From Magnetococcales bacterium HCHbin5 (lineage in GTDB: Bacteria; Pseudomonadota; Magnetococcia; Magnetococcales; Magnetaquicoccaceae), in NCBI GenBank assembly GCA_002753505.1, contig PEAG01000022.1, forward strand, positions 1 to 46,325: a DNA stretch of 46,325 bases, in the 5' to 3' direction. A program made the translations under genes and the position numbers. The notes below the pieces were generated by a model. That model worked only from the letters and a program-made list of their open reading frames with translations. It ran no database searches and was not told where the DNA came from. Shown here in pieces: positions 12,722 to 39,513 of the stretch (its first letter is position 1; every line of letters starts with the position of its first letter).

Positions 12722-12747
12722 TTTGCGTGTAACCAGGGAGAGAAGCG

Positions 12748-13677: not shown

Positions 13678-13737
13678 CATTGGGTGCGGTTTGGACGAAA
13701 CAATTGACCTGTATTCTCAAACAAAAGGATCTGTGAT

Positions 13738-14169: not shown

Positions 14170-14225
14170 CTTGGATGATCGGACAATCCAGGCTGGATCA
14201 AGGGGTGGAGCTCCCTCAGGTTAAT

Positions 14226-14244
14226 CCCCCGGCACTGCCGGGGG
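14226..14244 (+). terminator. GC-rich hairpin between lipoprotein and cusA genes
   Basis: CCCCCGGC (14226-14233) pairs with GCCGGGGG (14237-14244) around a 3-nt loop. The downstream sequence is GGCTCTTATCG, without a real T tract, so termination may be partial and would lower cusA expression relative to the upstream genes. Confidence 0.45.
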
Positions 14245-14282
14245 GCTCTTATCGTTTGGCTGCTTGACAAGGAAATCGTGCG

Positions 14283-17200
14283 ATGATTGCTTGGCTCATC
14301 CGCTGGTCGTGCCGCAACCTGTTATTGGTGATGCTTGGCACATTTTTTATTGTGGGCAGCGGAATCTATGCGGTGCTTCGCATCCCCCTGGACGCCATTC
14401 CCGATCTTTCGGATGTCCAGGTCATTCTCTATACCGAGTTTCCCGGTCAGGCACCCCAGGTGGTGGAGGATCAGGTGACCTATCCCCTGACCACCGCCAT
14501 GCTCTCCGTGCCCCGTTCCAAGCTGGTGCGGGGGTTTTCGTTCTTCGGGGCCTCCTTCGTCTACGTTATCTTCGAGGATGGTACTGATATTTACTGGGCA
14601 CGCAGTCGGGTATTGGAATATCTCAATTTTGCCGCCAAACGGTTGCCCCCCGGTGTTACCCCCACGTTGGGGCCAGATGCCACTGGGGTCGGTTGGGTCT
14701 ATCAGTATGCGGTTTTAGCCAAGGATAAAACCCTGGCCGAACTGCGCACCCTGCAGGATTGGTACCTGCGCTATCACCTGGCCAAGGCAGAGGGAGTGGC
14801 AGAGGTGGCCAGCGTCGGCGGTTACGTACAACAGTATCAAGTCGTGGTCGATCCCCAACAGTTGCAGGCCTACAATATTCCTCTCTCCCGGGTCAGCCAA
14901 GCCATTACCATGAGTAACCGCGACGTCGGTGGGCGGGTGGTGGAAATGGCTGAAACCGAGTATGTGGTGCGGGGAAAAGGCTATCTGCGCGGGGTGGCGG
15001 ATATCGAAAACATTGTCCTCAAAGAGGAAAAAGGTATTCCTGTTCGCTTGCGGGACGTAGCGCGGGTGGAACTTGGCCCGGACGAACGGCGGGGATTGGC
15101 CGAATTGAACGGCGAAGGAGAGGTGGTCAGTGGCATCGTCATCCAACGCTTCGGCCAAAATGCCCTGGCCGTGATCCAGAATGCCAAGGCAAAACTGGCT
15201 GAAATTACCAGTAGTCTGGGTGAGGGTATCCAGATTGTGGCGGTTTACGACCGATCGGAACTGATCCTGCGGGCAGTGGAAACCCTGAAATACACCCTCG
15301 TCGAAGAGAGCCTGATCGTCGCAGTGGTCTGCATCGTCTTTCTGCTGCATGTACGCAGTGCCCTGGTGGCCATACTCATGCTGCCGGTGGGGGTGCTGAT
15401 CGCCGTGCTGCTGATGCAGTCTCTGGGCATGACCTCCAACATCATGAGCCTGGGTGGTATCGCCATTGCTGTGGGTGCCATGGTGGATGCCGCCATTGTC
15501 ATGATCGAAAATGCCCACAAGCACCTGGAACGTGCCCCTCCGGACAAACCACGCCATCAGGTGTTGATGGAGGCGGCGGTGGAGGTGGGGCCAGCCCTCT
15601 TTTTCAGCCTGCTGATTATTACCGTCTCTTTCCTGCCGGTCTTTACCCTGGAAGCCCAGGAGGGACGACTGTTCAAGCCTCTGGCCTTCACAAAAACCTT
15701 CTCGATGGCCGGGGCTGCCCTGCTCTCCATCACCCTGGTGCCGGTGCTGATGTTGTTGTTTGTGCGGGGCCGGATCCTGCCGGAACACAAAAACCCCATC
15801 AACCGGTTTCTGATCTGGATCTACCGCCCAGTCATCCGACTGGTACTGCGTTTCAAGATCTCTTTTATTCTGTTGGCTCTGGCGGTGCTGGCGGGCAGCG
15901 TCTTTCCGGCCTTGCGTCTCGGCAGCGAGTTCATGCCCAATCTCAACGAAGGCACGCTGCTCTACATGCCTACCACGTTACCCGGTCTTTCCATGACCAA
16001 GGCAGAGGAACTGCTCCAGACTCAGGACAAGCTGATCAAGAGTTTCCCGGAAGTGGCCTCCGTGTTTGGCAAGGCGGGACGCGCCGTGACCGCGACAGAT
16101 CCCGCTCCGACGGAAATGTTCGAGACGGTCATCAACCTGAAACCAGAAGCCGAATGGCGTCCTGGTCTGACCCTGGATGGGCTGGTGGCTGAAATGGACG
16201 CTGCCCTCCAGATGCCAGGGGTGAGCAATGCCTGGACCATGCCTCTCAAGGCACGTATTGACATGCTTTCCACCGGCATCCGCACCCCCATCGGGATCAA
16301 GGTGTTCGGCAAAAATCTGGAAGAGTTGGAACCTCTGGCCCAGAAAATCGAAACCGTGGTCAAGGGCGTACCCGGCACCACCAGTGCCTATGCCGAGCGG
16401 GTGGGAGGTGGTTACTACCTGACCATCGATCCGGACCGGGATGCCATTGCCCGCTACGGGTTGACCATCGGTGACCTGCAGGAGGTGATTCTCACCGCTC
16501 TGGGTGGTGAAAGCGTTACCACCACCGTGGAGGGACGGGAGCGGTTCACGGTCAATGTGCGGTATCCCCGTGATTTCCGTTCTGACCCCGAGGCCATTGC
16601 CAAAAAGGTGTTGGTGCGGGTCGGCAATGGGGCACAAATCCCCCTGGGACAACTGGCCGCATTGCGTCTGGAAAAAGGTCCGGCGGCCATCCGTACCGAA
16701 AACGCCCTGCTGTCGGTTTATATCTTTGTGGACATACGCGACCGGGATATTGGCGGTTATGTGGCCGATGCCCGGAAAGCGGTGCAGGAACAGGTGATGA
16801 TGCCGACCGGGACTTTTCTCCTGTGGAGCGGCCAGTTTGAATACATGGAACGAGCCAAGGAAAAGCTCAAGATTGTCATTCCGTTGACTCTTATGATCAT
16901 CTTCTTGCTTTTATATCTGAATTTTGGCCGTCTTACCGAGACGTTGATTGTCATGCTCTCCCTGCCGTTCGCTTTGGTAGGCGGGGTTTGGCTGATGGAC
17001 TGGTTGCATTTCAATTTGAGTGTAGCGGTGGCCGTGGGGTTTATCGCCCTGGCCGGAGTGGCAGCGGAGACGGGGGTGGTGATGCTGATCTACCTGGATC
17101 ACGCCTTGAAAGAACGAGCTGCCCGGCGCGAGGTGGAAAGAGCCCCACTGACTCGTGACGATCTCTATGAGGCGATCATGGAGGGGGCCGTGGAACGGGT

Positions 17201-17447
17201 GCGGCCCAAAATGATGACTGTGGTGGCCATCATGGCGGGTTTGTTGCCCATCATGTGGAGTACTGGCACCGGTTCAGAAGTCATGCGCCGTATCGCTGCC
17301 CCCATGGTCGGCGGGATGATCTCTTCCACCCTGTTGACTTTGGTCATCATTCCGGCAATCTACTTCCAGATCAAAGAATTTTCTATTCGCAAGGATAATC
17401 TTGCAAAGACTGTTTCCATGCGGGAGGAACGCAAAGGAGTGAAATAA
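14283..17447 (+). CDS. cusA: CusA-type Cu(I)/Ag(I) RND efflux pump
   Basis: The 1,054-residue inner-membrane pump has the CusA TM4 signature AVGAMVDAAIVMIENAHKHLE with Asp402. Met562 (LLYMPTTLPG), Met612 (PTEMFET) and Met661 (RIDMLSTG) are spaced 50 and 49 residues apart. This reproduces exactly the spacing of the copper-binding Met573/623/672 triad of E. coli CusA, offset by 11. It works with the CusB-like adaptor and the TolC-family channel to expel Cu+/Ag+ from the periplasm and cytoplasm. Unusually, it is separated from them by three small secreted-protein genes and a hairpin. Length and motifs are normal for the family. Confidence 0.95.
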   Translation: MIAWLIRWSCRNLLLVMLGTFFIVGSGIYAVLRIPLDAIPDLSDVQVILYTEFPGQAPQVVEDQVTYPLTTAMLSVPRSKLVRGFSFFGASFVYVIFEDGTDIYWARSRVLEYLNFAAKRLPPGVTPTLGPDATGVGWVYQYAVLAKDKTLAELRTLQDWYLRYHLAKAEGVAEVASVGGYVQQYQVVVDPQQLQAYNIPLSRVSQAITMSNRDVGGRVVEMAETEYVVRGKGYLRGVADIENIVLKEEKGIPVRLRDVARVELGPDERRGLAELNGEGEVVSGIVIQRFGQNALAVIQNAKAKLAEITSSLGEGIQIVAVYDRSELILRAVETLKYTLVEESLIVAVVCIVFLLHVRSALVAILMLPVGVLIAVLLMQSLGMTSNIMSLGGIAIAVGAMVDAAIVMIENAHKHLERAPPDKPRHQVLMEAAVEVGPALFFSLLIITVSFLPVFTLEAQEGRLFKPLAFTKTFSMAGAALLSITLVPVLMLLFVRGRILPEHKNPINRFLIWIYRPVIRLVLRFKISFILLALAVLAGSVFPALRLGSEFMPNLNEGTLLYMPTTLPGLSMTKAEELLQTQDKLIKSFPEVASVFGKAGRAVTATDPAPTEMFETVINLKPEAEWRPGLTLDGLVAEMDAALQMPGVSNAWTMPLKARIDMLSTGIRTPIGIKVFGKNLEELEPLAQKIETVVKGVPGTTSAYAERVGGGYYLTIDPDRDAIARYGLTIGDLQEVILTALGGESVTTTVEGRERFTVNVRYPRDFRSDPEAIAKKVLVRVGNGAQIPLGQLAALRLEKGPAAIRTENALLSVYIFVDIRDRDIGGYVADARKAVQEQVMMPTGTFLLWSGQFEYMERAKEKLKIVIPLTLMIIFLLLYLNFGRLTETLIVMLSLPFALVGGVWLMDWLHFNLSVAVAVGFIALAGVAAETGVVMLIYLDHALKERAARREVERAPLTRDDLYEAIMEGAVERVRPKMMTVVAIMAGLLPIMWSTGTGSEVMRRIAAPMVGGMISSTLLTLVIIPAIYFQIKEFSIRKDNLAKTVSMREERKGVK

Positions 17448-24288: not shown

Positions 24289-26805
24289 ATGGATCGTCGT
24301 TCATTTCTCAAGCTTGGTGCCGCATCTTCCGCCTTTGCGGTCTCCGGCGGAATTCTGTTGAACCGAGCCAATGCCTTGCCCCTGCATGGGGGCAGGGATT
24401 TTTCCCCAAAAACAGGGTCGGAACGTAAAGCCGTTCCCAGTGCCTGCTGGCAGTGTGTCACCCGCTGCCCCAATATCAGTTATGTGGAAGATGGCAGGTT
24501 GGTCAAGATCGAAGGACAGCCCGACTCGATTCGCACTCACGGCGTTCTGTGTGCCAAGGGCCAGGGCGGCGTCAATCAATCTGGCGACCCGGACCGGATC
24601 CTCTATCCCATGAAGCGCGTGGGCAAGCGCGGAGAAGGGCGATGGAAACGTATTTCCTGGGACGAAGCCCTGGAAGAATTGTCCTCCCGCATGGAGAAAT
24701 TGCGCGCTGCCGGGGAACCGGAAAAGGTGATGTTCCATTACGGACGTATGAAGGCCAGTTCCAGCAAACTGATCAGCACCTTTTTTGAAACCTATGGCAC
24801 CAAGACCATCGGCAACCATACATCTATTTGCGAAGCGGCCAAGTTTACCGGACAGGAATTGACCTGGGGCGTCTCCTACGATAATTGGGATTTCGATCAT
24901 GCCCGCTATGTGTTGAATTTCGGCAGCAACGTCATGGAAGCCCATACCAACCATGTGCCGACCGCCCACCGACTCATCGACCGACTGGCCAAGGGACAAC
25001 TCCGTCTCGTGACCTTCGACGTCCGGCTTTCCAACACGGCGGCCAAATCCCATGAATGGCTGCCCATCCGGCCCGGAACGGACCGGGCAGCGGTGTTGGC
25101 TATGTGCCATGTCATCATGACGGAAGAACTGTTCCGGGGCGATGGCGAAACATTTCTCAAGTATTGCAAGGCCACCGAAGGCCATCAAGCCACCGTGGCG
25201 GATAAAGTGACCGCGCTCACGAACCATCTTGCCTCCTACACCCCCGAATGGGCAGAGAAAATCACCGGTGTACCCGCCGAGACCCTGCGCCGTTTGGCAC
25301 GGGAAGTGGCCACGGTGAAACCTGCCTGCATCATTTCCTACCGAGGTGCTGTCGCTCACCACCATGGGGCCGATACCGAACGGGCCATCCAGATGCTGGC
25401 GGCCATCACTGGCAATGTAGACGCTCCCGGCACTCGCTGTGTCTCCGTCGGTGCCAAGTGGCAATATCCCAAGGGCCCGGCGGATAAACCCAAGGGCAAA
25501 GGACTCAAACTCGACGACGGCGTCAAGGGAGCGGCCGCAATGGCCACCCATCATGTGAGCCACCAGATTTTCAAGGTGATCAGAGAGGGAAGCGCAGGAC
25601 GCCCCGCTGTCTATATCTGGTTTTGCCATCAACCGGTCTATGCCAATGGCGGCGTCCAGGAAAACATTGATGTACTCAAGGATGAGAGCCTGTTGCCTTT
25701 TACTGTCTGCGTGACCCCGTTTTATGACGAATCGGCAGCCCTGGCGGACATCATTCTGCCCGATACGCCCTATACGGAACGTTGGGGATGGGAGGATATG
25801 GTCTCGCCCAATCAGGTGCCTGAATTCTACATTCGTCAACCCGTCGTGCCGCCCATGGGCGAATGTCGGGATTTTGCCGATGTCTGTTGCGACTTGGCCG
25901 AACGGCTGAAGATGCCGTTGGGATTCAAGAGCAGGGAGGAATTTGTGCGTCTCTCCTGTGAAATGACCCCGGAGATCAAAGCCCAAGGTGGATTCGACTT
26001 CATGCGGTCCAAGGGGGTCTGGCATGATCCGCATGCCAAGCCGCGTTTTTACTCGTATCGCAAAACACTGGATCCCAAGGATTATCAACGCGACGGTGTC
26101 GTGAAAGATCCATTGACGGGGGTCTGGTGGGATTGGAAAAAGGCCCATGTGGAGAGCGAGGCCGAGGCACTCAAAATGGGGTATCGACGTACTCCAAAGG
26201 CCTATGCCAGTTATGTGGGCCAGGAGATCGATGGCGAGGTTTATGTCGGCTTCAGGCCGGATAAACTCAATAAATCCGGTTTGTTTGAACTGTACTCCGA
26301 CTTGATGGTGGAAAAGGGATTCCCAGCGTTTCCTTCCTGGACCCCCATCCCGGAACATGCGGCCATGGGCAAAGAGCAACTCATTCTGACCACTTTCAAA
26401 GTGGCGGTGCATTCCCAGTCCCGCACCGGGAACTGCAAATATCAAGCAGAGATTTACCATGCCAATCCGGCCTGGCTCAATCCGACCACAGCCATGGAAA
26501 AAGGGCTTGTCGATGGCGACCGCATCGAGGTGAAATCCAAGCTCGGATATATGGAGACCAGGGTTCGGGTAACACCTGCCGTAGTTCCCGGCGTCATCGC
26601 GATCTCTCACCACTGCGGACACTGGGAGTATGGGCGTTACGCATCCTCCAAACAAGCACCTGATGGTGTGAAAGATTCAGAACATGGGCACAAGTGGTGG
26701 GAGGATAACGGTGCCCACCCCAATTGGATCATCAGCAACGAGGCGGATCCTATCTCAGGACAGATGCGCTGGATGGACACGGTCGTCGATGTACGAAAAA
26801 TCTGA
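24289..26805 (+). CDS. Tat-exported molybdopterin oxidoreductase catalytic subunit (PsrA/PhsA class)
   Basis: The 838-residue enzyme has a Tat signal (DRRSFLKLGAA), an N-terminal 4Fe-4S motif (Cys53-x2-Cys56-x3-Cys60 and Cys88) and the molybdopterin-binding domains. A cysteine at 181 in NHTSICEAAKFTGQ is the likely molybdenum ligand, as in polysulfide/thiosulfate-type enzymes. It has about the length of PsrA/PhsA/ArrA/ArxA-like proteins but does not match one clearly enough to assign a substrate. Polysulfide, thiosulfate, tetrathionate, sulfite and arsenic oxyanions remain possible. The ATG follows AAAGGAGAAAACATC. The next gene overlaps its last 17 bases. Confidence 0.88.
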   Translation: MDRRSFLKLGAASSAFAVSGGILLNRANALPLHGGRDFSPKTGSERKAVPSACWQCVTRCPNISYVEDGRLVKIEGQPDSIRTHGVLCAKGQGGVNQSGDPDRILYPMKRVGKRGEGRWKRISWDEALEELSSRMEKLRAAGEPEKVMFHYGRMKASSSKLISTFFETYGTKTIGNHTSICEAAKFTGQELTWGVSYDNWDFDHARYVLNFGSNVMEAHTNHVPTAHRLIDRLAKGQLRLVTFDVRLSNTAAKSHEWLPIRPGTDRAAVLAMCHVIMTEELFRGDGETFLKYCKATEGHQATVADKVTALTNHLASYTPEWAEKITGVPAETLRRLAREVATVKPACIISYRGAVAHHHGADTERAIQMLAAITGNVDAPGTRCVSVGAKWQYPKGPADKPKGKGLKLDDGVKGAAAMATHHVSHQIFKVIREGSAGRPAVYIWFCHQPVYANGGVQENIDVLKDESLLPFTVCVTPFYDESAALADIILPDTPYTERWGWEDMVSPNQVPEFYIRQPVVPPMGECRDFADVCCDLAERLKMPLGFKSREEFVRLSCEMTPEIKAQGGFDFMRSKGVWHDPHAKPRFYSYRKTLDPKDYQRDGVVKDPLTGVWWDWKKAHVESEAEALKMGYRRTPKAYASYVGQEIDGEVYVGFRPDKLNKSGLFELYSDLMVEKGFPAFPSWTPIPEHAAMGKEQLILTTFKVAVHSQSRTGNCKYQAEIYHANPAWLNPTTAMEKGLVDGDRIEVKSKLGYMETRVRVTPAVVPGVIAISHHCGHWEYGRYASSKQAPDGVKDSEHGHKWWEDNGAHPNWIISNEADPISGQMRWMDTVVDVRKI

Positions 26806-27424
26806 GGAGCGGATCAACCTGCCCGTTCTTGCCGAAGAGACCTGGGCGAGAAGCCACGTTTACGCTCTGCTCGCCCAGGTCTTCCGGGCTGAACCTGACG
26901 AGGGACTGATTCGTCATCTGCAATCCCCTGAAGTCAGGGCGGCGTTGGACACCCATGGAAAACAACTGGCCAGTTTCCTGGAACAGGACGGCATGGAGCA
27001 GACGCTTGCCACCCTTGCAGAGGAGTATGCCCGACTTTTTTTAGGCCCCGGCCCGCACATCAGCCTGCACGAATCGGTCCTGGTCCCTGGGGGTGGCTTG
27101 TTGCGGGGAAAAGAGATGACGGCGGTCAAGGCCTTCATGGCAGATGCGGGATTTGTATTGCCGGAAAACACGAAAATGTTGCCGGATCATTTGTCGGTTG
27201 AACTGGAGTTCATGGCCCACTTGTGTGCGGAGGAGGCACAAGCATGGCTGTCTGGCGATGATGTCAGAGCGCGCAATGCAAGGGCTTGGCAGGTGGATTT
27301 TTTGGCTACTCACCTGGGACAATGGGCTGATATCGTCAAAGACAGGTTGGACGCATCACATCCATCGCCTTTTTATGCCGTATTCGCGGCACTGCTGTGT
27401 TGGGCATATTCCAAAATCAAATAA
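26789..27424 (+). CDS. TorD/DmsD-family chaperone for the molybdoenzyme
   Basis: The 211-residue all-helical protein has the family segments LAEEYARLFLGPGPHISLHESV and LPDHLSVELEFMAHL. Such chaperones bind the Tat signal and help insert the molybdenum cofactor before export. The ATG at 26,789 lies inside the end of the catalytic gene, so translation is probably coupled and the two are made together. It completes the B-C-A-D operon. Specificity for this enzyme is inferred from position. Confidence 0.88.
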   Translation: MYEKSEERINLPVLAEETWARSHVYALLAQVFRAEPDEGLIRHLQSPEVRAALDTHGKQLASFLEQDGMEQTLATLAEEYARLFLGPGPHISLHESVLVPGGGLLRGKEMTAVKAFMADAGFVLPENTKMLPDHLSVELEFMAHLCAEEAQAWLSGDDVRARNARAWQVDFLATHLGQWADIVKDRLDASHPSPFYAVFAALLCWAYSKIK

Positions 27425-27472
27425 GATGGCTCTCCTGTTATTAACATAAGTCATACAAAGGAAATCGGTCCC

Positions 27473-29230
27473 ATGACGAATCTCCAGAAGCTGCTGCAAA
27501 TCGCCGTACAATCCTACCAGGCCGGGCGATTGCGAGATGCGGAACGGGTGGTGAACAAGCTGCTGCTACAAGAGCCCCACCATGCCGAGGCACTGCATCT
27601 CCTGGGGGTCATCACTCATCAGTCCGGCCACAGCGATCAGGCCCTGCCGTGGATACAACAGGCGATTGTCCACCAACCCAACGCCCCCCTGTTTTTCAAC
27701 AGCCTGGGGATGGTTTTGATGGCCATGGATCGCCTTCAGGAGGCAGAACAAGCCTATCGGCAGGCGTTGCAATGGAAACCGGATTTTGTGATCGTATACA
27801 ACAATCTGGGTATTTTGTTCAGCAACCGGGGGGATCTGGCCGCTGCCAGTCATTGCTTTCAGCAGGCACTAAGCCTCCAGCCAAACTTTCCAGAGGCCCA
27901 CAGCAACTTATCCGACATCCTGAGAGAACAGGGGGATCTGCCGGGTGCCATCCAGCATTGCCGGGAGGCGTTGCGGTTGCGGCCAGAGTTTGCCGAGGCC
28001 CGGTTCAATCTGGGCAATATTTTGAGCGCGTCGGGAGATCTGGAGGGAGCCATTCAGCAATTTCAGCGGGTATTGCAGACCCATCCCGACCAGTTGTTGG
28101 CGCGCCTCAATCTGGGCAACCTGCTGAAAGCGCAAAACAGGGCAGAGGCGGCCATCGACCAATATCGGCAAATACTCGCCCGTCAACCTGATCATCTCCC
28201 GGCCTTGTACAATCTCGGCAATGCCTTACAGGAGACGGGACAGACAGAGGCAGCTGTCTCGCGATACCGGCAGGTATTGGCTCTCCAACCGGACCATACC
28301 CAAGCACTCAACAATCTCCGCACCGCCTATACCAAATTGATCCCTGGCTGGCATTTTGCCATGATGCACGACGAGGCGCGGAATCGTGCCTATGAGGCGG
28401 CACTGGCCAGGGTGGTGACACCGGACTCTCTGGTCCTGGATATCGGCTCCGGTTCCGGATTGTTGGCCCTCATGGCGGCCCGGTTGGGGGCTAAACGGGT
28501 TATCAGCACCGAAATGGTACCCCTGCTGGCCCGAAAAGCCAGGGAGATTGTTCAACACAACGGCTTTGCCGAAACCATCACCGTACTGGACAAAAAATCC
28601 ACCACCCTTCAGGTGGGCACCGATCTGCCAGAGCGGGCGGATATTCTGGTGACAGAAATTTTTGATGCCGGTTTACTGGGAGAGCAGGCGGTTGCCGCCA
28701 TTCAGCATGCCCGCTCCAACCTGTTGAAACCGGATGCCCGCATCATTCCCCACCACGCGGTGGTGTGTGCCGCCCTGGTGGAGAGTCCCCGTTTGTGGCA
28801 AGAGGGATTTGTGGGAGAGATTTCCGGGTTTGACCTGAGCCCGTTCAACGAGTTTCAGCGTATTCATCTACAGAAAAGAATTCAAGAATTTCCACATCGG
28901 GTGCTAACCAGCAACCAGGATGTTTTTGCCTTCGATTTTTTCGGCCAACCCATCCGGGAGGCCCAAACCACCCTGCCGGTGACCATTACGGCGGAGGGGG
29001 TTTGTCATGGCATTGTCTACTGGTTCCGTCTCTTTTTAGATGGGGAGACGGTCATCGACACAGACCCGAAAGGGGTCTATTCCCATTGGATGCAGTCCGT
29101 GCAACTGCTGGAGAGCCCCGTTCCGGTCCGTTTCGGGGAGCTGTTTGCCCTGGTTGCGCGCCACAACCGGCAGGCAGTTGCCTTTGAACTCACCCGCCCG
29201 TCCCCTCCCATCGGCAGGGCGGGCAAGTGA
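27473..29230 (+). CDS. TPR protein fused to a PRMT-like protein methyltransferase
   Basis: The 585-residue protein has about eight TPR units in residues 1-290, then a SAM-dependent methyltransferase. Motif I is LVLDIGSGSGLLALMAARLGA (Asp323 to Gly329). The double-E loop TEIFDAGLLGE (Glu395, Glu404) is in the position where protein arginine methyltransferases bind arginine. A THW-like loop SHWMQ (537-541) and a C-terminal beta-barrel segment follow. These features are the PRMT hallmark, and the double-E loop resembles PRMT7/9. Activity, substrate and whether it methylates protein arginine are unknown. AAGGAAATC precedes the start. It follows the molybdoenzyme operon by about 50 bp, with no strong sign of a common transcript. 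Confidence 0.85.
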   Translation: MTNLQKLLQIAVQSYQAGRLRDAERVVNKLLLQEPHHAEALHLLGVITHQSGHSDQALPWIQQAIVHQPNAPLFFNSLGMVLMAMDRLQEAEQAYRQALQWKPDFVIVYNNLGILFSNRGDLAAASHCFQQALSLQPNFPEAHSNLSDILREQGDLPGAIQHCREALRLRPEFAEARFNLGNILSASGDLEGAIQQFQRVLQTHPDQLLARLNLGNLLKAQNRAEAAIDQYRQILARQPDHLPALYNLGNALQETGQTEAAVSRYRQVLALQPDHTQALNNLRTAYTKLIPGWHFAMMHDEARNRAYEAALARVVTPDSLVLDIGSGSGLLALMAARLGAKRVISTEMVPLLARKAREIVQHNGFAETITVLDKKSTTLQVGTDLPERADILVTEIFDAGLLGEQAVAAIQHARSNLLKPDARIIPHHAVVCAALVESPRLWQEGFVGEISGFDLSPFNEFQRIHLQKRIQEFPHRVLTSNQDVFAFDFFGQPIREAQTTLPVTITAEGVCHGIVYWFRLFLDGETVIDTDPKGVYSHWMQSVQLLESPVPVRFGELFALVARHNRQAVAFELTRPSPPIGRAGK

Positions 29231-29817: not shown

Positions 29818-32016
29818 CTATGCCGCGCTACCAACCATCCTGAACGAGTATTCAGCAGCATCCGCCAGCGACTGCCCCCCGCTGCCAAACTGATTAAACG
29901 CCGGGAATTTCATGAAGATCGTCTTCCCGACCAGTGCCGGATCGTAGGCGTACCGGAAGATCGCCCCATCACAGCGGACGAACGGGCTTTGACTGGGGTG
30001 CGCCTTGATTGGGGTGCCGTAGAGTCCACGCCGCAGATAACCGCCCAGGGTGTACCGATGACTGCCCGTCAGGGTTGCAGCGGAATAGGCAATGAACTCC
30101 CCATCCACCCATGCCAGAGTGGCCCGGTTGTCCGCATCGGCGATGGTGCCGGAAGTCAATGCTCCGGAGGACTCCGACAGATCCACCTTGCAAATGCTGG
30201 TGGTGTCTGGATCGGTGCTGGACGCCATTGGCTCAGACAAAAATCCATGGCGGGCCGGGAAGACGATTTCGCCGATCTTTTTGTAGTTCGTGCCGTCCGA
30301 CGACAACCAAGCCTGACAGCCGCCATAGTTCTCTCCCCCCGACGTGGCCACCCAGATCTCATGCCCAGTTGCGGTTAGTGCCTTGGGGGCTTCGAACAGC
30401 ACGGGGGTATTGACTGCGCCGGAGGGTTGGTTGTAGGCCGGGACATAGCCGCCAACCGGCTGGTGCGGATAGGTGGCAGAATTGAACACACCCTGGGGAG
30501 CATCTTCGGCTTCGATGGACAGGACACCCTCTTCATCCTCCTCGATGCTCAAGATCCGAACCGGCCTTTTATCCAGCCCTGCGGCCAGATCGGTGAGGGT
30601 AACGAGGTCGGTTGGTTCCAGCAAGCAGTGTTTCCAGCCCAGTTTGAAGACGTAGCTGTTGCGCACGTATTGCATCCTCTGGAGGATGTTTTGCGCCACG
30701 GATCTCGCCACCACAGGGGATTTTATTTCATGGGCTTTGATGGAGTCCATCGTCCGCAGACCGAACAAATCGATGGAGACCAGATCCTTGGCCTCGGCCA
30801 CCTCCGTATTGAACTGGTTGCTGGCATTGAGAAATTCGACTTTGACATGGTTGTATGCGTCAACCGATGGCCGTCGGGTGATGGTCACTGGATCCTCACT
30901 GCCTGAGATGATGAAGTCATCCTCCGTTAACTCGTAGACGGGTGTGGTGTTTGGCATGTAGGTGGTCTGGTGGCCGGTGACGATGGCATCGCCGAAGGGG
31001 GTGATTTTCAGGGTGCCTTCGGAGAAATAGACACCGGAATTCGTCAGCCTCATCAGGCGCGTGAGGATGGCACTGGCTTCCTCCTGCGCCGAAAAAACTG
31101 GCGACAGGAACAGACTGTTGGCCGTGCAGTACCGGTAGTATTGGGTCCAATCGCCGATGTTTGCCATGGGAAAGCCCAACCCGTAATGGGGGTTTGTCAG
31201 GAGATCAAGCAGGATATCCTTGGGGTGCGCATCGAAAAAGCCGTTGGCCGCGTCAAACGAAAGCTGACCAATGACATCAAAGTTCAGGTTCGGCAGTGCC
31301 GTGCCGGAGCCCAACTGCCAATCCAGAGCCGCCGCGTAGGCAGTGCCGCGATAGTGCAGGGCCTGCTCGGGGTGTTTGCTGGTCAGGTACGTCCAAGGGT
31401 TTTGCAGATAGTCGCCGTTGAAGACTGTCATGACGGAAGAACTGCTATTGATCGCATTGTAATTGTAACTGATTTGCACCTGGACGTTGGCGTACTGGGT
31501 GGCAAAATAGTAGGTGCCCGCAACGACAGTAAAATCGGTGCCGTTCGTCAAGGGCGTTGATACCTCTCCATCAATGACCACGCAGGAGATGTGGCTGGTC
31601 CACTGCGTGCCATGAGCAACCGTCACCTGATGCGAGCCGGAAACCAGATGCGCTTCGTTCCAGGCCGCCGAGGGGGTGATTACCTCCGACAGGTTGGCCG
31701 GATCGGGCTTGTAGTCGCGGTTGCTCCAGATGCCGTCAATGCCGGTGATGGGCCCCTCGCAGAGGCCGAAAACAAAGGACGCGGTATAGGTGTAGGTCGT
31801 GGAGACGACGGTAGTGCCGCCACCGCCTTTGCCGCCCACATCCTGCGACGTGGTGTGCGCGATGGCTTTGAAATCACCGTACCATAGCAGGTTCCCCGAC
31901 ACTCTGGCCCGGCCATAGACAATGGGTATCGCCGACCCGTAGATGCTGCCCTGGAAAGTGACGCCGTTGGCGCGAGGCTCACTATTGTTGATGACTTTTC
32001 CGTCCTTGCCGCTCAT
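29818..32016 (-). CDS. Phage tail tip / host-specificity protein (J-like, PF13550 type)
   Basis: The 732-residue protein starts with the baseplate-type segment GSIYGSAIPIVYGRARVSGNL. It has a central GFPMANIGDW...-type region and the DDFIISGSEDPVTITRRPSVDAYNHVKVEF segment found in phage tail proteins of the J/GTA gp15 class. It probably forms the central tip and contacts the host. Its start overlaps the NlpC/P60 gene stop (ATGA). It is the last tail gene before the non-phage flank. Shorter than the gp15 proteins of gene transfer agents (about 1,300 residues), it lacks an obvious glycosidase domain. Confidence 0.8.
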   Translation of the reverse strand: MSGKDGKVINNSEPRANGVTFQGSIYGSAIPIVYGRARVSGNLLWYGDFKAIAHTTSQDVGGKGGGGTTVVSTTYTYTASFVFGLCEGPITGIDGIWSNRDYKPDPANLSEVITPSAAWNEAHLVSGSHQVTVAHGTQWTSHISCVVIDGEVSTPLTNGTDFTVVAGTYYFATQYANVQVQISYNYNAINSSSSVMTVFNGDYLQNPWTYLTSKHPEQALHYRGTAYAAALDWQLGSGTALPNLNFDVIGQLSFDAANGFFDAHPKDILLDLLTNPHYGLGFPMANIGDWTQYYRYCTANSLFLSPVFSAQEEASAILTRLMRLTNSGVYFSEGTLKITPFGDAIVTGHQTTYMPNTTPVYELTEDDFIISGSEDPVTITRRPSVDAYNHVKVEFLNASNQFNTEVAEAKDLVSIDLFGLRTMDSIKAHEIKSPVVARSVAQNILQRMQYVRNSYVFKLGWKHCLLEPTDLVTLTDLAAGLDKRPVRILSIEEDEEGVLSIEAEDAPQGVFNSATYPHQPVGGYVPAYNQPSGAVNTPVLFEAPKALTATGHEIWVATSGGENYGGCQAWLSSDGTNYKKIGEIVFPARHGFLSEPMASSTDPDTTSICKVDLSESSGALTSGTIADADNRATLAWVDGEFIAYSAATLTGSHRYTLGGYLRRGLYGTPIKAHPSQSPFVRCDGAIFRYAYDPALVGKTIFMKFPAFNQFGSGGQSLADAAEYSFRMVGSAA

Positions 32017-32432
32017 GGTACCACCTTCCAGAAAGAGTGAAGCCTGCCGCCAAGTTCTTGGCCATCCAGGGAAGAGAGAATGACACCTACACCAGCAAAG
32101 GCATGGATGACGGTGCGCGGTTCGGGTAGCACAATGCCCGCATGAGAGACGCAGCGACCAAATCGAAACAGCGCGATATCCCCCGGTTCCGGGGTGGTTG
32201 TCTGCCTGGCATATTGCTGAATACCTGCCAGATATTTCTCTTCACTGCGGTGCAGGTGCCAGTCCTGGGAATAGCCGTCTGCCACCGCATAGGCAAGCTG
32301 GCACTCCTCGAAGACGGCGATGAGAAATTGGACGCAGTCCACGCCAACCCCTTTGATGCGCGCATGGTGGTGATAGGGCGTGAGCAGCCATGCCATGGCC
32401 GTCTGAACAATCTGCTCTCTGATGGCGTTCAT
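32013..32432 (-). CDS. NlpC/P60-family phage tail peptidase
   Basis: The 139-residue protein is a small papain-like peptidoglycan hydrolase. Cys33 lies in GVDCVQFL, His97 in CVSHAGIVL and His110 in VIHAFAG, giving the expected Cys-His-His triad. In tailed phages and GTAs such proteins open the cell wall at the tail tip (RcGTA gp14). The start at 32,432 overlaps the previous stop by ATGA, and the frame extends upstream only as a long shadow. No signal peptide is needed because it is packaged in the particle. Confidence 0.85.
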   Translation of the reverse strand: MNAIREQIVQTAMAWLLTPYHHHARIKGVGVDCVQFLIAVFEECQLAYAVADGYSQDWHLHRSEEKYLAGIQQYARQTTTPEPGDIALFRFGRCVSHAGIVLPEPRTVIHAFAGVGVILSSLDGQELGGRLHSFWKVVP

Positions 32433-33292
32433 ATTGCCGTCTCCGCAACCGGAATATAGGGAAAGCCACGAAAATTTCTCACGTTGTGAAACTTGTTGGT
32501 GCAGGTAGCCTGGGCTTTGTCGCAACCGGGATAGGCTTTGAAGGCATCCCCCACTGCAGGGATGGACGGCAAAGGCAGCAGCAACTGGAAGATGCCGTCT
32601 CCAGAGCAGGATTTGATGGTGCGCCGCACACCGGCCAGCGCACCACTGAGAAAATGGACATACCCCTGCTCAAACCAGCGGGCCTCCACCAACGTCAACC
32701 CACTGGCCAGGGCCGTGGTGGTGCTGCCAGCGTAAACCGTCGTTTCGGTGGCAATGGCAGGATCGTCCCGCTCGATGCCGCAATCGGCGTCGTAGAGGGT
32801 ATGGATACAACCCGGTTGCCAGACGTTACGCGGCAGTTTGACATTCAGGAGTTGAATCGCACTGTTCACGGTGAGCTTGGCCATGGTGCGGGTGATCTGG
32901 ATGTCGGCCACCTGTCCGACAAACAAGGTGATGCCACCCACCACCGACAGATCGGGCTGCAAGAAAACCCGGTAGAGTGCCAGGGTGGCCCCGTCCAGGG
33001 CACCAACTCCTGCAGCCTGGAGCCACGAAGCACCCAACAGCAGATCGTTCGGGCCGGGTACCACTTCCAGGTTGAGGGTGTCCACCTCGACCCCGATGAC
33101 GCAGCGCGTGCGCGACCGGCGGATAATGGGCCCGGTGGAGGAGTACAGGCGGTCGTCGCACAAAAAATCTGCATCAAACGTGCTGTACCGGAGTGCCGTG
33201 CCGTCCACCAACTGGAACTCGTACAAGTCGGCCATCAGAAATGACTGTTCCGATTGCAGATATTGGATCAACTCGTCGCTGGCGTGTTTCAT
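32429..33292 (-). CDS. DUF2163 / phage BR0599-family tail protein
   Basis: The 287-residue protein has the DUF2163 layout: an N-terminal region with FQLVDGTALRYSTFDADFLCDDRLY, a beta-rich middle with an Asn/Gly-rich loop, and the C-terminal YPGCDKAQATCTNKFHNVRNFRGFPYIPV. In this C-terminal part the cysteine pattern C-D-x(5)-C-x(2)-K-F-x-N is characteristic. It corresponds to RcGTA gp13, an iron-sulfur-bearing baseplate protein. The start overlaps the DUF2460 stop (ATGA), so these genes are translationally coupled. A longer upstream frame is shadow. Confidence 0.87.
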   Translation of the reverse strand: MKHASDELIQYLQSEQSFLMADLYEFQLVDGTALRYSTFDADFLCDDRLYSSTGPIIRRSRTRCVIGVEVDTLNLEVVPGPNDLLLGASWLQAAGVGALDGATLALYRVFLQPDLSVVGGITLFVGQVADIQITRTMAKLTVNSAIQLLNVKLPRNVWQPGCIHTLYDADCGIERDDPAIATETTVYAGSTTTALASGLTLVEARWFEQGYVHFLSGALAGVRRTIKSCSGDGIFQLLLPLPSIPAVGDAFKAYPGCDKAQATCTNKFHNVRNFRGFPYIPVAETAI

Positions 33293-34557
33293 ATCTTGTT
33301 CCCCGTCGCACCGATAAAGGTCAGTTCCCGCAACTCCCAGAGGTTGGGCAGCGTGCGGGCAAAATCCGCCGTGTCCTCGCCGAACCGGCAGCGAAAGTAA
33401 AACGTCCCGCTCCAGGTGAGCACCGCACCAACGGCGGGGGGAACGGTGAAGGTCACCAGCCCCGTGGAGGAGATGGCATAGTCGTTGGGTGCAGAGAGGG
33501 TGGTGCCGTTCATCCGGATGGCAGTCAGGGTCTTGATGTTCTCGACTGGCTCCACGAACGAAAAAGAGCCGTGAAAGCCAAAGGCACGGGTCAGTTGGAA
33601 GGCAGTCTGCTCGCCATCTCCGACGCCGAATGGCATGTCGGTACAGACCGAGTCGGTCGGATCGAGAAACAAGAACGACTCGAAACTGCCCCGCCTGCCC
33701 AGAATGAAGCCCTGCAAGGTCTCGTATTCGTAGCGGGGGTTGCCCGCCCGCAACCAGTCGAACAACAGACTGAACCGCCAGACGGGATAGGCCCGGAAGG
33801 CACCCCGTTGCTCCCGTCCGGACGAAGCGGTCTGGATGGAGGTGCGGAATTCCGGGGTTTTCTTCAATTCCCAGGAAAGGCCAGGCAGCGACGGGAAGAC
33901 GGCAAACTGGCTCTTTGGCTCGTAGGGGCTGTAGCTGATGGGACACTCCCACGCCTGTTCCACCCACCGTCGCCAGGGCAATTCCCACTGCCTGTCTACC
34001 GTCTGGCTGTATTCCAGGCTCCACTGCCGGTCGGCCTGGGATTTCTGGACGACATCCCAGCCTTCGTCCCACTGCTGGCTGACAGGGAGTGTGAGCGCAT
34101 ACGGGCAGTCCCACTGGGTGGTGATGGATGCAGGGGCAGCGATGGCAAACAGCTTTTGCGCCCCGCCGATCCAGTCGGTGACATTCGACCACGAGGAGAG
34201 CGTGGTAAAGCTGCTGCCATCGTCGGACCATTGCAGGCTGAACGCCTTGGGGGTCTGGCTGGAGTTGCCGGGGGTAAAGCCCCATTCCGCCACATCGACG
34301 GCGTTGCCTGCGCCAAAATCATACTGAAACCAGCAGGGGGCTGACGGCCCGCCGCTGAGCCAATAGTCGCTTGCGCCATTGTTGTTGAAGAGTTTGTAGG
34401 CGGTGGAGTTGTTGTGGGAAGCCGAAGCGGTGCCGCCGCTGCATTGATCGGCCCCGCCGACGCTCCCCCGGAACTCAGCTTCATAGCCCCGGATAAAGTT
34501 GTCGGATCCAGAGTTGGACTCGGTGATATAAACGCGCCAATACCGATGGGGAGCCAT
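33289..34557 (-). CDS. DUF2460 tail protein with N-terminal discoidin-like domain
   Basis: The 422-residue protein is a fusion. Residues 1-130 are a galactose-binding-like F5/8 type C domain (HRYWRVYITESNS, LSGGPSAPCWFQYDFGAG, LQWSDDGSSFTTL). Residues about 205-422 are the DUF2460 (TIGR02217-like) part with FPSLPGLSWELKKTPEFRT, YETLQGFILGRRGSFESFLF and LTFTVPP-like strands. DUF2460 corresponds to RcGTA gp12, the distal tail ring. The added domain could bind surface sugars. The same discoidin domain occurs at 41,698. The ATG follows a good GGAGG. Confidence 0.85.
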   Translation of the reverse strand: MAPHRYWRVYITESNSGSDNFIRGYEAEFRGSVGGADQCSGGTASASHNNSTAYKLFNNNGASDYWLSGGPSAPCWFQYDFGAGNAVDVAEWGFTPGNSSQTPKAFSLQWSDDGSSFTTLSSWSNVTDWIGGAQKLFAIAAPASITTQWDCPYALTLPVSQQWDEGWDVVQKSQADRQWSLEYSQTVDRQWELPWRRWVEQAWECPISYSPYEPKSQFAVFPSLPGLSWELKKTPEFRTSIQTASSGREQRGAFRAYPVWRFSLLFDWLRAGNPRYEYETLQGFILGRRGSFESFLFLDPTDSVCTDMPFGVGDGEQTAFQLTRAFGFHGSFSFVEPVENIKTLTAIRMNGTTLSAPNDYAISSTGLVTFTVPPAVGAVLTWSGTFYFRCRFGEDTADFARTLPNLWELRELTFIGATGNKI

Positions 34558-34565
34558 GCTACCTC

Positions 34566-35294
34566 CTATGCCGACTCACCGCTGATGGCCATAATCACCT
34601 TGTCCCCAGAAAGGGAAGCGGCTCCGGCGGGCACCGTGCGCCGTTGCCAGACGGCCTGGGCATCGGCAATGCTCGCCACCTCCAGCACGGAGGCCACCCG
34701 GGTGCTTGACGCGGTATAGGCGTTGGCCAAGGTTACTCCGGAGGCCATGGCCAAGGTCGCCTTGTTGCCAGTCCAGGAGACGGCATTGCTGCTGGCCAAG
34801 CGCACAAACTCGGTGTTACCAGACGAGGCATCCACTGAGGTTTTGTCGGAGACGCGGATCAGATCGCCATCCCGGAAAATATTGGCTCCTGTGGAGGCAT
34901 TGCCGTTCTCCACATTCACCGCCAAGGTGGATGCCCCGGCACTGGTGTTGGCGTCCAGAGTGCCCGCCCCATAAAAACGGGTGTAGTCGTCCGCCTCGGC
35001 CTGGGTGTCGGTCGGGGTGCCGGACATCAGGACGACGGTGTCATCCCCCGGTGTGGGGGTCTCGATAAAGATGCGGGCGTTGGTCAGAGCCAAACTGGCC
35101 GCATTGACCACCTTGATAAACACCTTGCGGTATTTGACGGAACCGGCGGTGCGCTCGGCCTGAGAGACATCCGGCCAGATGTTGTTCTTGATGCCGCTCA
35201 CGATTTCCGTGCCAGAGATGGCACCCCCGTTGGCAGTGGTATCGTTGGCGATGGTAGCGGCATACAGTTTGAGTTCGGATGCGACGATGGACAT
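34566..35294 (-). CDS. Phage tail structural protein, unknown family
   Basis: This 242-residue, mostly beta protein has Ala/Thr/Ser-rich strands and no recognised motif. Segments such as NNIWPDVSQAERTAGSVKYRK and FIETPTPGDDTVVLMSGTPT resemble phage structural proteins of tail-associated loci. It lies between the tape measure and the DUF2460 gene, so a minor tail role is likely. The ATG has GGAGAAGC upstream. Its first 97 bases overlap the preceding small frame. The end overlaps the next ribosome binding site. Confidence 0.7.
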   Translation of the reverse strand: MSIVASELKLYAATIANDTTANGGAISGTEIVSGIKNNIWPDVSQAERTAGSVKYRKVFIKVVNAASLALTNARIFIETPTPGDDTVVLMSGTPTDTQAEADDYTRFYGAGTLDANTSAGASTLAVNVENGNASTGANIFRDGDLIRVSDKTSVDASSGNTEFVRLASSNAVSWTGNKATLAMASGVTLANAYTASSTRVASVLEVASIADAQAVWQRRTVPAGAASLSGDKVIMAISGESA

Positions 35295-35545
35295 GGTTGC
35301 TTCTCCAGAAACGACGTGGTGGTCAGTGCCTTAAATGCCTTGTTGATCAGTTTACGTAGGCGTGGATCCAGTGGTTGATTGGTGTCGAATTTTCCCGTAT
35401 CGATGGTGACAGTAGTGCCAGGACTGTCTGGTGCCAGCGCACGGATTTTCTCGGCATCTTCCGGGGGAAGGATGCATCCCGTAGAATGAAAGCCACAAAT
35501 TGGTGGAGTACCGGGAGGGATCTTCCACCAACTGGCCGCGTTCAC
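35198..35545 (-). CDS. Small tail-associated protein, uncertain 3' part
   Basis: The frame opens at a GTG overlapping the tape-measure stop (GTGA) and gives 115 residues. The first 85 look protein-like (PPEDAEKIRALAPDSPGTTVTIDTGKF, RLRKLINKAFKAL). The rest overlaps the next gene by 97 bases and is Pro/Ser-rich, so it may be a readthrough of a decayed stop or a true overlap. I cannot name a family. Confidence 0.45.
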   Translation of the reverse strand: MNAASWWKIPPGTPPICGFHSTGCILPPEDAEKIRALAPDSPGTTVTIDTGKFDTNQPLDPRLRKLINKAFKALTTTSFLEKQPCPSSHPNSNCMPLPSPTIPLPTGVPSLARKS

Positions 35546-38500
35546 CGCACCACCGGAACTGCGTTCCTGGCCAGTTTGCGCAGGGCCGGAGCCAGAGTAT
35601 GGGCATTGCTGTGCAACCAGGATTCAAAGCCTTTGGTATCAAGGGCACTGACATGGATGGTAATATTGCCGCCGCCGGTGCCATTCGTGGCCATTGCCCG
35701 CACGGCATCGGCCTGCGCTCTGGGCAGTACCATTTCCCGCTCGTGTAACTGAGTGACCGGGTTGATACCGGCGGGGATATCAAAGCCCCCCTCGGCGGAA
35801 AACAGGTTTTTCACCAGCGCGATGATGGAGGCAAATACTCCCGCCGCGATGGCGGGTGCCAGGAACGGCCCAACCATCGGGATGGCCGCAATGGAGGCAT
35901 AGGCGTTGGCCATACCGGTCCAGGCGGCCATGCCGATGGATTCGGAATCTGCCGCTGCCTGGGCACCCAGGCCGGTGGCGGCGGCTCCGGCCTTGACCTC
36001 CTCGGTGGCGGTGGCCACGGTGCCCTCGGTGGCCTTGGCCATGTTGACGGCGTTGGAGACCGTCGTCTGGTTTGCAATCCGCACCAGTCCGAAGGCCTTG
36101 CCCAGTTCGGTTTCGGCCAACTGGTTTTCTGCCCACAGGCTGAACCGTTTGGCCAGAAAGCCGGTGAACTGGTCCAACTCTGCTTTGAGCAGGGTGTTCA
36201 TGGCCTGCTGGACGGTGGTCTGATGGGTCACCAGGCCGGACAGGGAACTGCTGATGGCGGTCTGGACGGGAGCCATCATGGCCTGGAAGTCGTGATGTGC
36301 CTGAATGGCCAGATCGTTGTTGCTCTTCTGGATGGCCAGATTGTGGTTCAGGACAGCCAGTTTGATATCGTTCTGTAGCTTGATCTGTTCGGTGCTGCCC
36401 TGCCGTTTCAACGCCAGTTCGGCCTCCATGGCACGCATCGTGTTTTGGAAGCTTTGCTCCTCCAGTGCCTGTTTGGCCTGCATCACCTCCCGAACCGACT
36501 GGATCTCCATTTCCTGGTTGAAACGGAGGGACTCCTGCTGCCAGGCAATCCGATTGTCGGCGATGGATTTTTCCAAGCCGATCTGCAGGCTGGCAAACTC
36601 GTTCATCTTGGCGCGGTGGGCCCGTTCCTCGGATTCGATGACACGACGGGAGCGGATGAACTCCTTGGACTCATAGCCGTAGGCGTCGCCGACTTCCTTG
36701 GCGGCCTTTTTGGCGATGTCGATGCGCTGCTGACTCCCCTCCAGGGTTTTGTCCATCTCCTCGCGGAGAGTTTCCAGACGCGCATTCAGGCTATCATGGG
36801 CCTGCTGCTTGTGGATCTGGTAGATCTCATGATCGATATGCGCCAGATCCTTTTCGCTCAGGCCGACGAGGGATCGCTTCGCCTGCCAGAACTGCTCCTC
36901 CATCTGCAGGGTCTCGCGGAAATAGTTGCCGGAGGCCTCCTTCTGGCGGTCCAGTTCGGCTTTGAACTCCTGGAAGCGGTCTTCTGGCTCTGGTACATGG
37001 GGCTTCCCCGGCGGATTGGCGGGACTTTGGAGCGCGGCCACCTCAGCATCGGCCTTTTTCTTGCGTTCCGAGGCGCGTTGGGTGGATTGCTCCTGTTCGC
37101 CAATGGCCCCGGCCAGTTCGGGAGAAGTGGCCTTCAGTACGTTTTTCTGTCGCTCGAATTCGGTTTTTCGGCGGGCTTTGTCCGCTTCCTGCTGTTTGGC
37201 GCGTTCGTTTTGCTGTTTCAGCGCATCATCCTGACGCTTCACCGCATCGGTAAGATGGTCCATCTTGCCAGCGGTCTCGGTGGCTTCCTCGCCCCAGAGG
37301 TGAATATACTTGCCAGCCTCATAAACGCCCCAAACCGCCAGACCAATGAGGCTGGTCTTGACCGCCCGGTTCAGAAGCACCACGGAAGCGGTGGCTCCCT
37401 CGCCAGCCACGGCCAATCCCCACAGTGCGCTGGTCAGGGGGATGACGCCCAGCACCATGGCCGCAAAGGCGGCAATGAGCAGACCGGCACCCTCGATGTT
37501 TTTGCGGGTTTCATCATCCAGGGCGAGAAATGCCTGGACCAGACCATGGATGATGGTGCTGGTCCGTTCGGCATTGGGCGCGAGATCCTCTCCCGCCTTC
37601 TGGCTGAGCACCCCCAGAATGGCGGAAAGCCGCTCCATGGCACCGCCCAAGCCGCCTTCAATATGCTCGGCGGCTTTTCTGGAAGAGTCACCGGAGGCGA
37701 GCAGTTCCTTTCTGAACGCCTGGATGACGGGAACCCCCTTGTTCAGCACCACATTCATGGCATCGCTGTGGTGCATGCCGAACAGGATCGACATGTCGGT
37801 GGCGTTGGCACCGGCCTTTTCCAACTGCTTGAAAATGTCGACCAGGGGGATCAGCTTGCCCGGACTCGATTGGAAGACCAGCCCCAGCCGATCCATCACC
37901 TCCTGCATCTGCCGGGTGGGGTTCAGCATTCTCTGTAAAGAAGCGGCCAACGCTGTCCCGGCCCGCTCGCCACGATAACCGCCATCGGCCATTACCCCGA
38001 TGACGGCGGCCAGATCCAGAAAATCGATGCCTGCCGATTTGGCGGTGGCAGCGGATCTCTTGAGAGACTCGCCGACGGCATTGACGGTGGTCATCGACGA
38101 CTGAGCCGTCTGGACGATCACGTCGCTGATGGCGGTCAGATGGTTGGTCTTGAACCCGGAGCTGTTCATGATGGTCAGCAGGGTGTCTGCCGACTGCTTG
38201 ATGTCCGGGATACCATTGCCCAATTCACCGGCGGCCACCGTCGCCATGTGCATCACGGTGGGCAGGGCCTGCATGGCATCGTCTGCTTTCATGCCTGCGG
38301 TGGCCAATACCAATAACCCATCCGCTGCACTCTTGGCCGAGAAGGTGGTGGTTTTTCCCATCTCCTCGGCATAGCTGCGCAGGGCTTGGGTCTGTTCGCT
38401 GGAGGTCTCCATGGCAACCTCTACCCGGCGCATCACCGTGTCGAATTCAGCGAACCTGGTCAGGGTGCTGGTGGATACCTGCTGCAGGGAGTACATGGCC

Positions 38501-39513
38501 GCAAGCAGCGTCCCGGCCGCCGTGGCCACGCTGTGCATGGAGGTACCGGTGCCGGACATTTCCCTCTGCAACTCGGAGGTCTTCACCTTGAGTTGCTCGT
38601 GGGCCCGCGCCAGATCCCGGCTGGAAGCCTGCCCGGAAGCAGCAAGCTGCTGGTAGGCGTTTTTCAGCTTCTGGATCTCCTCCTGCACCTCACGGACGGG
38701 GCGCACCCCGAGTTGGGCAAACAAGCCCATGATGCGGGCATGCTCCTGCAACCGTTCGTTGGCCTGTTGCAGATTGGTGCGCAGGCGTTCCTCTTCGGAC
38801 GAGAGGGTGCGCACACTGATACCGGCGGCAGAGAGTCCTACCGCCGCCTGCTGCACTGCCAACCGGGCCGCCTGCTGGGCTTCCCCCAGACGGGTGACCT
38901 CGGCCTGGGCGGCCTGGAAGCCCTTGGTCATTTTCTCTGTGGCACCGGGGGTCTTTTCAATCTCGGCGGTCAGGCGATTGATGTCCGCCATCGTCCGTTT
39001 GACCACCGTACCAAGGCCGGTGGATTCATCCTGCATGCGCTTCAATTCGGCACGGGCGGTGGCCAACTCTCGCGCCATCTCGACGGTTGGGTTGCTCGCC
39101 TGCCGGAATTGTGCAGACAGCTCCTGCACTTTTGCCCGGAATTGTGCGGTGGCCGCCGCCGATGCCTTTTCCTCCTCGATAAATTTGGCAAAGGACTCCT
39201 TGGCCCCGGCCAAGTCCGCTTTCAGCTTTTCCAGGGGGGCATTGGCCTCGGCGATCTGCCGGGCATAGTCCGCCATGGCCAGTTGAGCAGAGCGGAGCGA
39301 TTGATGGGTATCCGCCAGTTGCTGGCGCACCTGCTTCAGGCGGTCGATGTCTGCCAAGCCGGACATGGCAGAAGAGAGTTTGGCCCCTTCGGCGGCGGCC
39401 GCACCGGTCAGGCCGGAAAGGATCTTGTTGAACTCCTGCTGCACCTGGGCCGTGGCCCGGACGAACTGCTCCACGTTCATCCGCAGGAAAAATTCCAGGG
39501 TGTTGTTGGACAT
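35542..39513 (-). CDS. Phage tail tape measure protein (TP901 type)
   Basis: This 1,323-residue protein has a long coiled coil in its first 300 residues. A TP901-type core follows at about 355-560 (RFAEFDTVMRRVEVAMETSS, GKTTTFSAKSAADGLLVLAT, AGVGIDF-like LDLAAVIGVMADGG). A hydrophobic stretch (FAAMVLGVIPLTSALWGLAV, about 700-720) follows, then a second coiled coil and a terminal hydrophobic segment (VGPFLAPAIAAGVFASIIAL). At about 0.15 nm per residue its length would give a tail near 200 nm (family rule, inference). It follows the chaperone pair, the normal siphovirus order. Confidence 0.9.
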   Translation of the reverse strand: MSNNTLEFFLRMNVEQFVRATAQVQQEFNKILSGLTGAAAAEGAKLSSAMSGLADIDRLKQVRQQLADTHQSLRSAQLAMADYARQIAEANAPLEKLKADLAGAKESFAKFIEEEKASAAATAQFRAKVQELSAQFRQASNPTVEMARELATARAELKRMQDESTGLGTVVKRTMADINRLTAEIEKTPGATEKMTKGFQAAQAEVTRLGEAQQAARLAVQQAAVGLSAAGISVRTLSSEEERLRTNLQQANERLQEHARIMGLFAQLGVRPVREVQEEIQKLKNAYQQLAASGQASSRDLARAHEQLKVKTSELQREMSGTGTSMHSVATAAGTLLAAMYSLQQVSTSTLTRFAEFDTVMRRVEVAMETSSEQTQALRSYAEEMGKTTTFSAKSAADGLLVLATAGMKADDAMQALPTVMHMATVAAGELGNGIPDIKQSADTLLTIMNSSGFKTNHLTAISDVIVQTAQSSMTTVNAVGESLKRSAATAKSAGIDFLDLAAVIGVMADGGYRGERAGTALAASLQRMLNPTRQMQEVMDRLGLVFQSSPGKLIPLVDIFKQLEKAGANATDMSILFGMHHSDAMNVVLNKGVPVIQAFRKELLASGDSSRKAAEHIEGGLGGAMERLSAILGVLSQKAGEDLAPNAERTSTIIHGLVQAFLALDDETRKNIEGAGLLIAAFAAMVLGVIPLTSALWGLAVAGEGATASVVLLNRAVKTSLIGLAVWGVYEAGKYIHLWGEEATETAGKMDHLTDAVKRQDDALKQQNERAKQQEADKARRKTEFERQKNVLKATSPELAGAIGEQEQSTQRASERKKKADAEVAALQSPANPPGKPHVPEPEDRFQEFKAELDRQKEASGNYFRETLQMEEQFWQAKRSLVGLSEKDLAHIDHEIYQIHKQQAHDSLNARLETLREEMDKTLEGSQQRIDIAKKAAKEVGDAYGYESKEFIRSRRVIESEERAHRAKMNEFASLQIGLEKSIADNRIAWQQESLRFNQEMEIQSVREVMQAKQALEEQSFQNTMRAMEAELALKRQGSTEQIKLQNDIKLAVLNHNLAIQKSNNDLAIQAHHDFQAMMAPVQTAISSSLSGLVTHQTTVQQAMNTLLKAELDQFTGFLAKRFSLWAENQLAETELGKAFGLVRIANQTTVSNAVNMAKATEGTVATATEEVKAGAAATGLGAQAAADSESIGMAAWTGMANAYASIAAIPMVGPFLAPAIAAGVFASIIALVKNLFSAEGGFDIPAGINPVTQLHEREMVLPRAQADAVRAMATNGTGGGNITIHVSALDTKGFESWLHSNAHTLAPALRKLARNAVPVVR

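Follow-up and report, generated by a model that had tools for sequence, protein, structure and literature searches.

The window analysed here, a stretch of 46,325 nucleotides from the genome of Magnetococcales bacterium HCHbin5 (contig PEAG01000022.1, assembly GCA_002753505.1), carries on its plus strand a gene encoding a 585-aa protein in which a TPR array runs into a PRMT-like catalytic part (TPR-PRMT). The reading frame that an earlier note on this DNA had placed at 27473-29230 is present, with an ATG start and the sequence AAAGGA at 27457-27462, 10 nt 5' of it. Upstream on the same strand lies a molybdoenzyme operon comprising an Fe-S subunit (22543), a catalytic subunit (24055) and a NarJ/TorD-like chaperone (26684-27424), whose end is separated from the TPR-PRMT gene by a gap of 48 bp, a spacing that suggests co-transcription. 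The operon was considered as a conserved linkage indicating a substrate or partner and was rejected, because an OPT transporter takes that place in L085, the uncultured Magnetococcales genome that encodes the nearest orthologue (partial, 84% identity). No biosynthetic genes were found around the TPR-PRMT gene in the window, and no conserved neighbour pointing to a substrate was seen at TPR-PRMT loci. Other features of the window are a downstream minus-strand segment (29818-39513) of phage-tail or gene-transfer-agent-like genes (Rcc01698-like, BR0599, PhageMin_Tail), and two RND efflux systems at 4907-9556 and 10065-17447 (an HlyD/AcrB-type pair; a CusA/CzcA-type heavy-metal system). The features of the gene, with conservation counted over 75 of the best 80 homologues obtained in a genome scan, are as follows:

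27473..29230, plus strand: TPR-PRMT gene, 585 aa; open reading frame with ATG start, AAAGGA 10 nt upstream, dN/dS 0.165
27482..28297, plus strand: TPR array, eight 34-residue repeats, aa 4-275; Pfam TPR models 1e-45, AF2 helices with pLDDT >90
28337..29200, plus strand: PRMT7/9-type catalytic core, aa 289-576; phmmer to PRMT7/PRMT9, AF2 pLDDT 96.4, Foldseek to 4m38 and 8rbk
28349..28384, plus strand: WHFAMMHDEARN, N-terminal active-site motif, aa 293-304; W293, H294, M297, D300 and R303 invariant in the 75 homologues
28433..28462, plus strand: motif I VLDIGSGSGL, predicted SAM binding, aa 321-330; G325, G327 and G329 invariant in the 75 homologues
28511..28513, plus strand: Glu347, predicted post-I acidic residue for SAM; Glu in 75/75
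28655..28684, plus strand: double-E loop EIFDAGLLGE with Glu395, Glu404 and Ala399; E395 in 75/75, E404 in 69/75
28757..29152, plus strand: PRMT_C beta-barrel and dimerisation subdomain, aa 429-560; PF22528 at 39.4 bits, cut-off 27
29081..29095, plus strand: THW-loop equivalent SHWMQ, aa 537-541; W539 in 74/75, Q541 in 65/75, H538 in 51/75

The PRMT_C family is represented by a single copy in this genome, and the dN/dS value, which refers to the comparison of the 585-aa protein with its L085 congener, shows purifying selection. Motif I, Glu395 and Glu404, and SHWMQ at 537-541, which had been described as occurring in PRMT order, were located exactly, with LDIGSGSG at 322-329 and the two glutamates of the double-E loop nine residues apart. 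The designation of the last motif as THW-like holds for its Trp and Gln, which are constant in the family; the His is variable, being retained in 51 of the 75 homologues and replaced by Cys in 11, as in the TCWEQ of PRMT9, and the TPR-bearing members from Rhizobium display GGW instead of HW. Further, a Dongia/Rhodospirillaceae clade of TPR-PRMTs (L027, L049, L064, L070, L088 and L093) carries Pro at the second glutamate of the double-E loop and keeps NHWKQ, a substitution that makes altered or lost activity possible in this clade.

Sequence comparison of the catalytic part against the PDB with phmmer retrieved PRMT7 (6e-53), followed by PRMT9 (2e-40) and Trypanosoma brucei PRMT7 (TbPRMT7, 3e-34), with type I PRMTs below them at around 1e-22; when the full protein was used, aa 218-543 aligned to residues 61-420 of PRMT9 as a single alignment that spans the TPR junction. 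Single-sequence fold prediction resolved the TPRs only, with pLDDT <50 for the catalytic part, for which a model based on an alignment of 75 homologues was used instead; this AlphaFold model of aa 240-585 reached a pLDDT of 96.4 and a pTM of 0.91. Its top Foldseek matches were all PRMTs, with no bacterial structure of this family among the matches: TbPRMT7 in complex with a histone H4 peptide (4m38) ranked first, and full-length bovine PRMT9 (8rbk) second, its superposition taking in the complete construct together with the last TPRs (TM 0.86; 364 aligned columns, TMq 0.86, 26% identity). Both the seven-strand SAM-binding domain and the PRMT beta-barrel are present, according to the model and the PF22528 match above its cut-off. 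The sequence, fold and motif evidence therefore indicates that the PRMT match is not due to chance. Structure prediction and comparison with PRMT7 and PRMT9, as the earlier note had proposed, returned these two enzymes as the top fold matches, and the fold of another methyltransferase class, which would have spoken against its PRMT-like assignment, did not emerge. With sequence, predicted fold and the tree described below all pointing the same way, placement of the 585-aa protein in the PRMT7/PRMT9 class of arginine methyltransferases is well supported; its catalytic activity, protein substrate and product type are what we infer from there.

Within this class, the 585-aa protein shares traits with both enzymes. 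PRMT7 (mouse 4c4a, T. brucei 4m38) is its best match in sequence as well as in fold; TbPRMT7 also consists of a single module, and the mouse enzyme has DHWMQ at the position of SHWMQ. PRMT7 lacks a TPR array. PRMT9 (human 6pdm, bovine 8rbk) resembles it in architecture, with N-terminal TPRs running straight into the PRMT core, and the superposition on 8rbk places the TPRs in the same fixed relation to that core. The motifs WHF.M.ND..RN and TE..DAGL.GE are common to both proteins. Conversely, PRMT9 has about three TPRs, two methyltransferase modules and CWEQ, whereas the 585-aa protein has eight TPRs, one module and HWMQ. A tandem second methyltransferase module is absent, since no more than about 40 residues follow SHWMQ, and the protein is thus PRMT9-like rather than a PRMT9. 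As regards product control in PRMTs, position 293, which is Trp in the 585-aa protein and in PRMT9 and Phe in TbPRMT7, would favour an enzyme that mono- or symmetrically dimethylates over one that makes ADMA.

The fusion to TPRs is not a lone oddity, as it is found repeatedly in the bacterial family and has its counterpart in eukaryotic PRMT9. In a single scan, a collection of genomes at species level yielded 208 relatives, and the best 80 of these belong to Magnetococcales, Alphaproteobacteria, Cyanobacteria (Pseudanabaena, Nostocaceae and Prochlorococcus), Bdellovibrionota, Myxococcota, Actinomycetota and others. In the openly accessible literature covered, a search for bacterial PRMTs found nothing, and no characterised TPR-bearing bacterial member was found. 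Occurrence within the class of the host is patchy, with high-similarity matches in 4 of 48 genomes, two of them from the genus of the host, so the TPR-PRMT is not a core function of the class. Two distant homologues of the class, apart from these four genomes, are of TubC type (L006:1087-2463 and L007:1117-2472), in which the PRMT-like methyltransferase is joined to an NRPS docking domain, TubC_N, an arrangement that suggests a putative arginine methylation on an assembly line. Distant PRMT-like proteins with 27-34% identity were also observed on three IMG/VR viral contigs (L112, L113 and L114).

Two kinds of relatives can be recognised in this family. In 27 of the loci of the best 80 relatives (e.g., L050:7165-8604), an SznF homologue adjoins the PRMT-like gene, and the members involved, from Nostocaceae, Myxococcota, Blastocatellia and Actinomycetota, are TPR-less; the Nostoc SznF homologue matches the SznF structures at 2e-155, and these loci are candidate N-nitrosourea-type biosynthetic clusters. 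SznE/StzE is described as an arginine-guanidino methyltransferase and partner of SznF, the two working on free L-arginine (PMC11705231; PMC10849742). Owing to the synteny with SznF, the SznF-adjacent TPR-less members are regarded as SznE-like enzymes for free L-arginine. Consequently, the term arginine methyltransferase alone does not equate to protein arginine methyltransferase. Position 399 is Cys in all 26 SznF-linked members (26/26); in the TPR-bearing group it is mainly Val or Ser and never Cys, and in the 585-aa protein it is Ala, as in PRMT9. Of the tree's 32 rows with TPRs, not one has an SznF neighbour. The separation between TPRs and SznF is complete, yet the tree shows only about three changes of each trait, independent pairs gave no significance, and we therefore rejected a statistical association and count it as one evolutionary contrast. 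TPRs were scored with a profile derived from the repeats of the 585-aa protein itself, with which degenerate repeats may have been missed in members with long N-termini assigned as TPR-less (L060, L063, L095 and L102).

In the tree, the bacterial family groups with PRMT7/9 apart from type I PRMTs (branch support 99/97), the eukaryotic PRMT7/9 being represented by PDB sequences only. Topology tests rejected neither a single clade of all bacteria (p 0.345) nor a single clade of PRMT7/9 (p 0.265), so that a transfer in either direction, from bacteria or from eukaryotes, would fit the tree. The presence of TPRs in both bacteria and PRMT9 would fit an ancestral TPR-PRMT, followed by loss of the TPRs in the SznE-like branch. 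The broader proposal, namely that a widespread bacterial TPR-PRMT family carries out true protein arginine methylation with an ancestral architecture shared with PRMT9, the TPR-less SznE type having arisen later, has in our estimation slightly less than an even chance of being correct.

With the integration of these findings, we consider it probable that the 585-aa protein is a PRMT7/9-class arginine-guanidino N-methyltransferase, which would mono- or symmetrically dimethylate a protein recruited by its TPRs. SAM would be bound at motif I and Glu347, the guanidinium clamped by Glu395 and Glu404, and the pocket closed by the SHWMQ loop; the TPR groove would most likely recruit a cellular protein and present one of its arginines for catalysis, with a mono- or symmetrically dimethylated residue as the product. 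The role of the TPR array in binding a protein substrate is proposed on the basis of the TPR junction shared with PRMT9, of the TPR architecture of this enzyme, which makes SDMA on protein and has SF3B2 as substrate (PMC10984984), and of TPR-GT41 (OGT/SPINDLY-type) neighbours. The latter likewise fuse a long TPR superhelix to a transferase, which is however a glycosyltransferase with a catalytic part lacking homology to that of TPR-PRMTs, and their genes adjoin TPR-PRMT genes in four loci (L032, L034, L096 and L109). Because L032 and L034, both from Magnetococcales, belong to genomes with >30 GT41 matches each, the adjacency is weak in these two, and it was downgraded as a strong signal after this copy count. 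Numbers of GT41 matches above 30 were seen in several related genomes, and the genome of the 585-aa protein contains one 3781-aa open frame with several TPR and GT41 (OGT/SPINDLY-type) stretches (G000:C92:27095-36475).

Points against this reading are that such bacterial relatives as have been characterised act on free arginine, that neighbouring genes single out no substrate, that the gene is patchy in its class, and that the Rhizobium and Dongia-type members deviate in the HW loop or at Glu404. A serious rival is methylation of a small guanidine compound in its free form, be it L-arginine or another metabolite, as by SznE in streptozotocin biosynthesis, with the TPRs serving for oligomerisation or partner docking; the SznF-linked TPR-less members belong to the same bacterial family, are about 40% identical to the 585-aa protein and share its catalytic motifs, SHWMQ included. 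We nevertheless judge it unlikely, at somewhat over one chance in five, since the traits of the SznE/StzE type are missing: no SznF match was found in the window or in the genome, no biosynthetic genes surround the gene, and the protein has Ala399 instead of Cys and eight TPRs, large TPR arrays being usual for protein ligands. Moreover, among the columns that differ between the two groups, it follows the consensus of the TPR group at 47 and that of the SznF-linked group at 22. A protein substrate is accordingly plausible, with free arginine as the alternative to be taken most seriously.

Less probable still, at about one chance in ten, is a degenerate PRMT, an adaptor bearing TPRs in which the fold is retained and arginine methylation has been lost. 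Degenerate second modules are known from PRMT7 and PRMT9, and Glu404 has been lost in some bacterial relatives; the 585-aa protein, on the other hand, keeps every canonical catalytic residue, and in the comparison with L085 its catalytic part shows higher conservation than the repeats (84% vs 64% identity). Finally, membership in another methyltransferase class, either PrmA-type (ribosomal protein L11) or a generic Rossmann enzyme, is highly improbable, and PrmA identity was excluded, given that the PF06325 match (40.8 bits, aa 310-397) covers the SAM-binding part only (profile positions 154-235), that a separate PrmA of full length (221 bits) is encoded in the genome, and that the protein, whose top fold matches are PRMTs, possesses PRMT_C, the double-E and the HW loop, even though homologues on Tistrella and Tropicibacter plasmids are named L11 methyltransferases. 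One of them, from Tistrella mobilis (L122:4947-6035, WP_014753283.1), bears the name 50S ribosomal protein L11 methyltransferase in its annotation, likely a misannotation of a member of the PRMT-like family.

The reading we favour, a PRMT7/9-class enzyme probably acting on a TPR-recruited protein, bears on a modification, protein arginine methylation by PRMTs, that the literature searched treats as eukaryotic. In addition to revealing that some homologues carry the wrong name, as in the case of the L11 methyltransferases, the comparison provides a simple sequence marker, namely TPRs versus an SznF neighbour together with residue 399, which distinguishes likely protein-directed from free-arginine enzymes. 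The bacterial family, with its complete PRMT7/9 active site and the PRMT9 TPR junction, has culturable hosts, including Pseudanabaena, Rhizobium and Magnetovibrio, which makes two questions testable: whether bacteria methylate arginines of their own proteins by PRMT-type enzymes, and where PRMT7 and PRMT9 came from.
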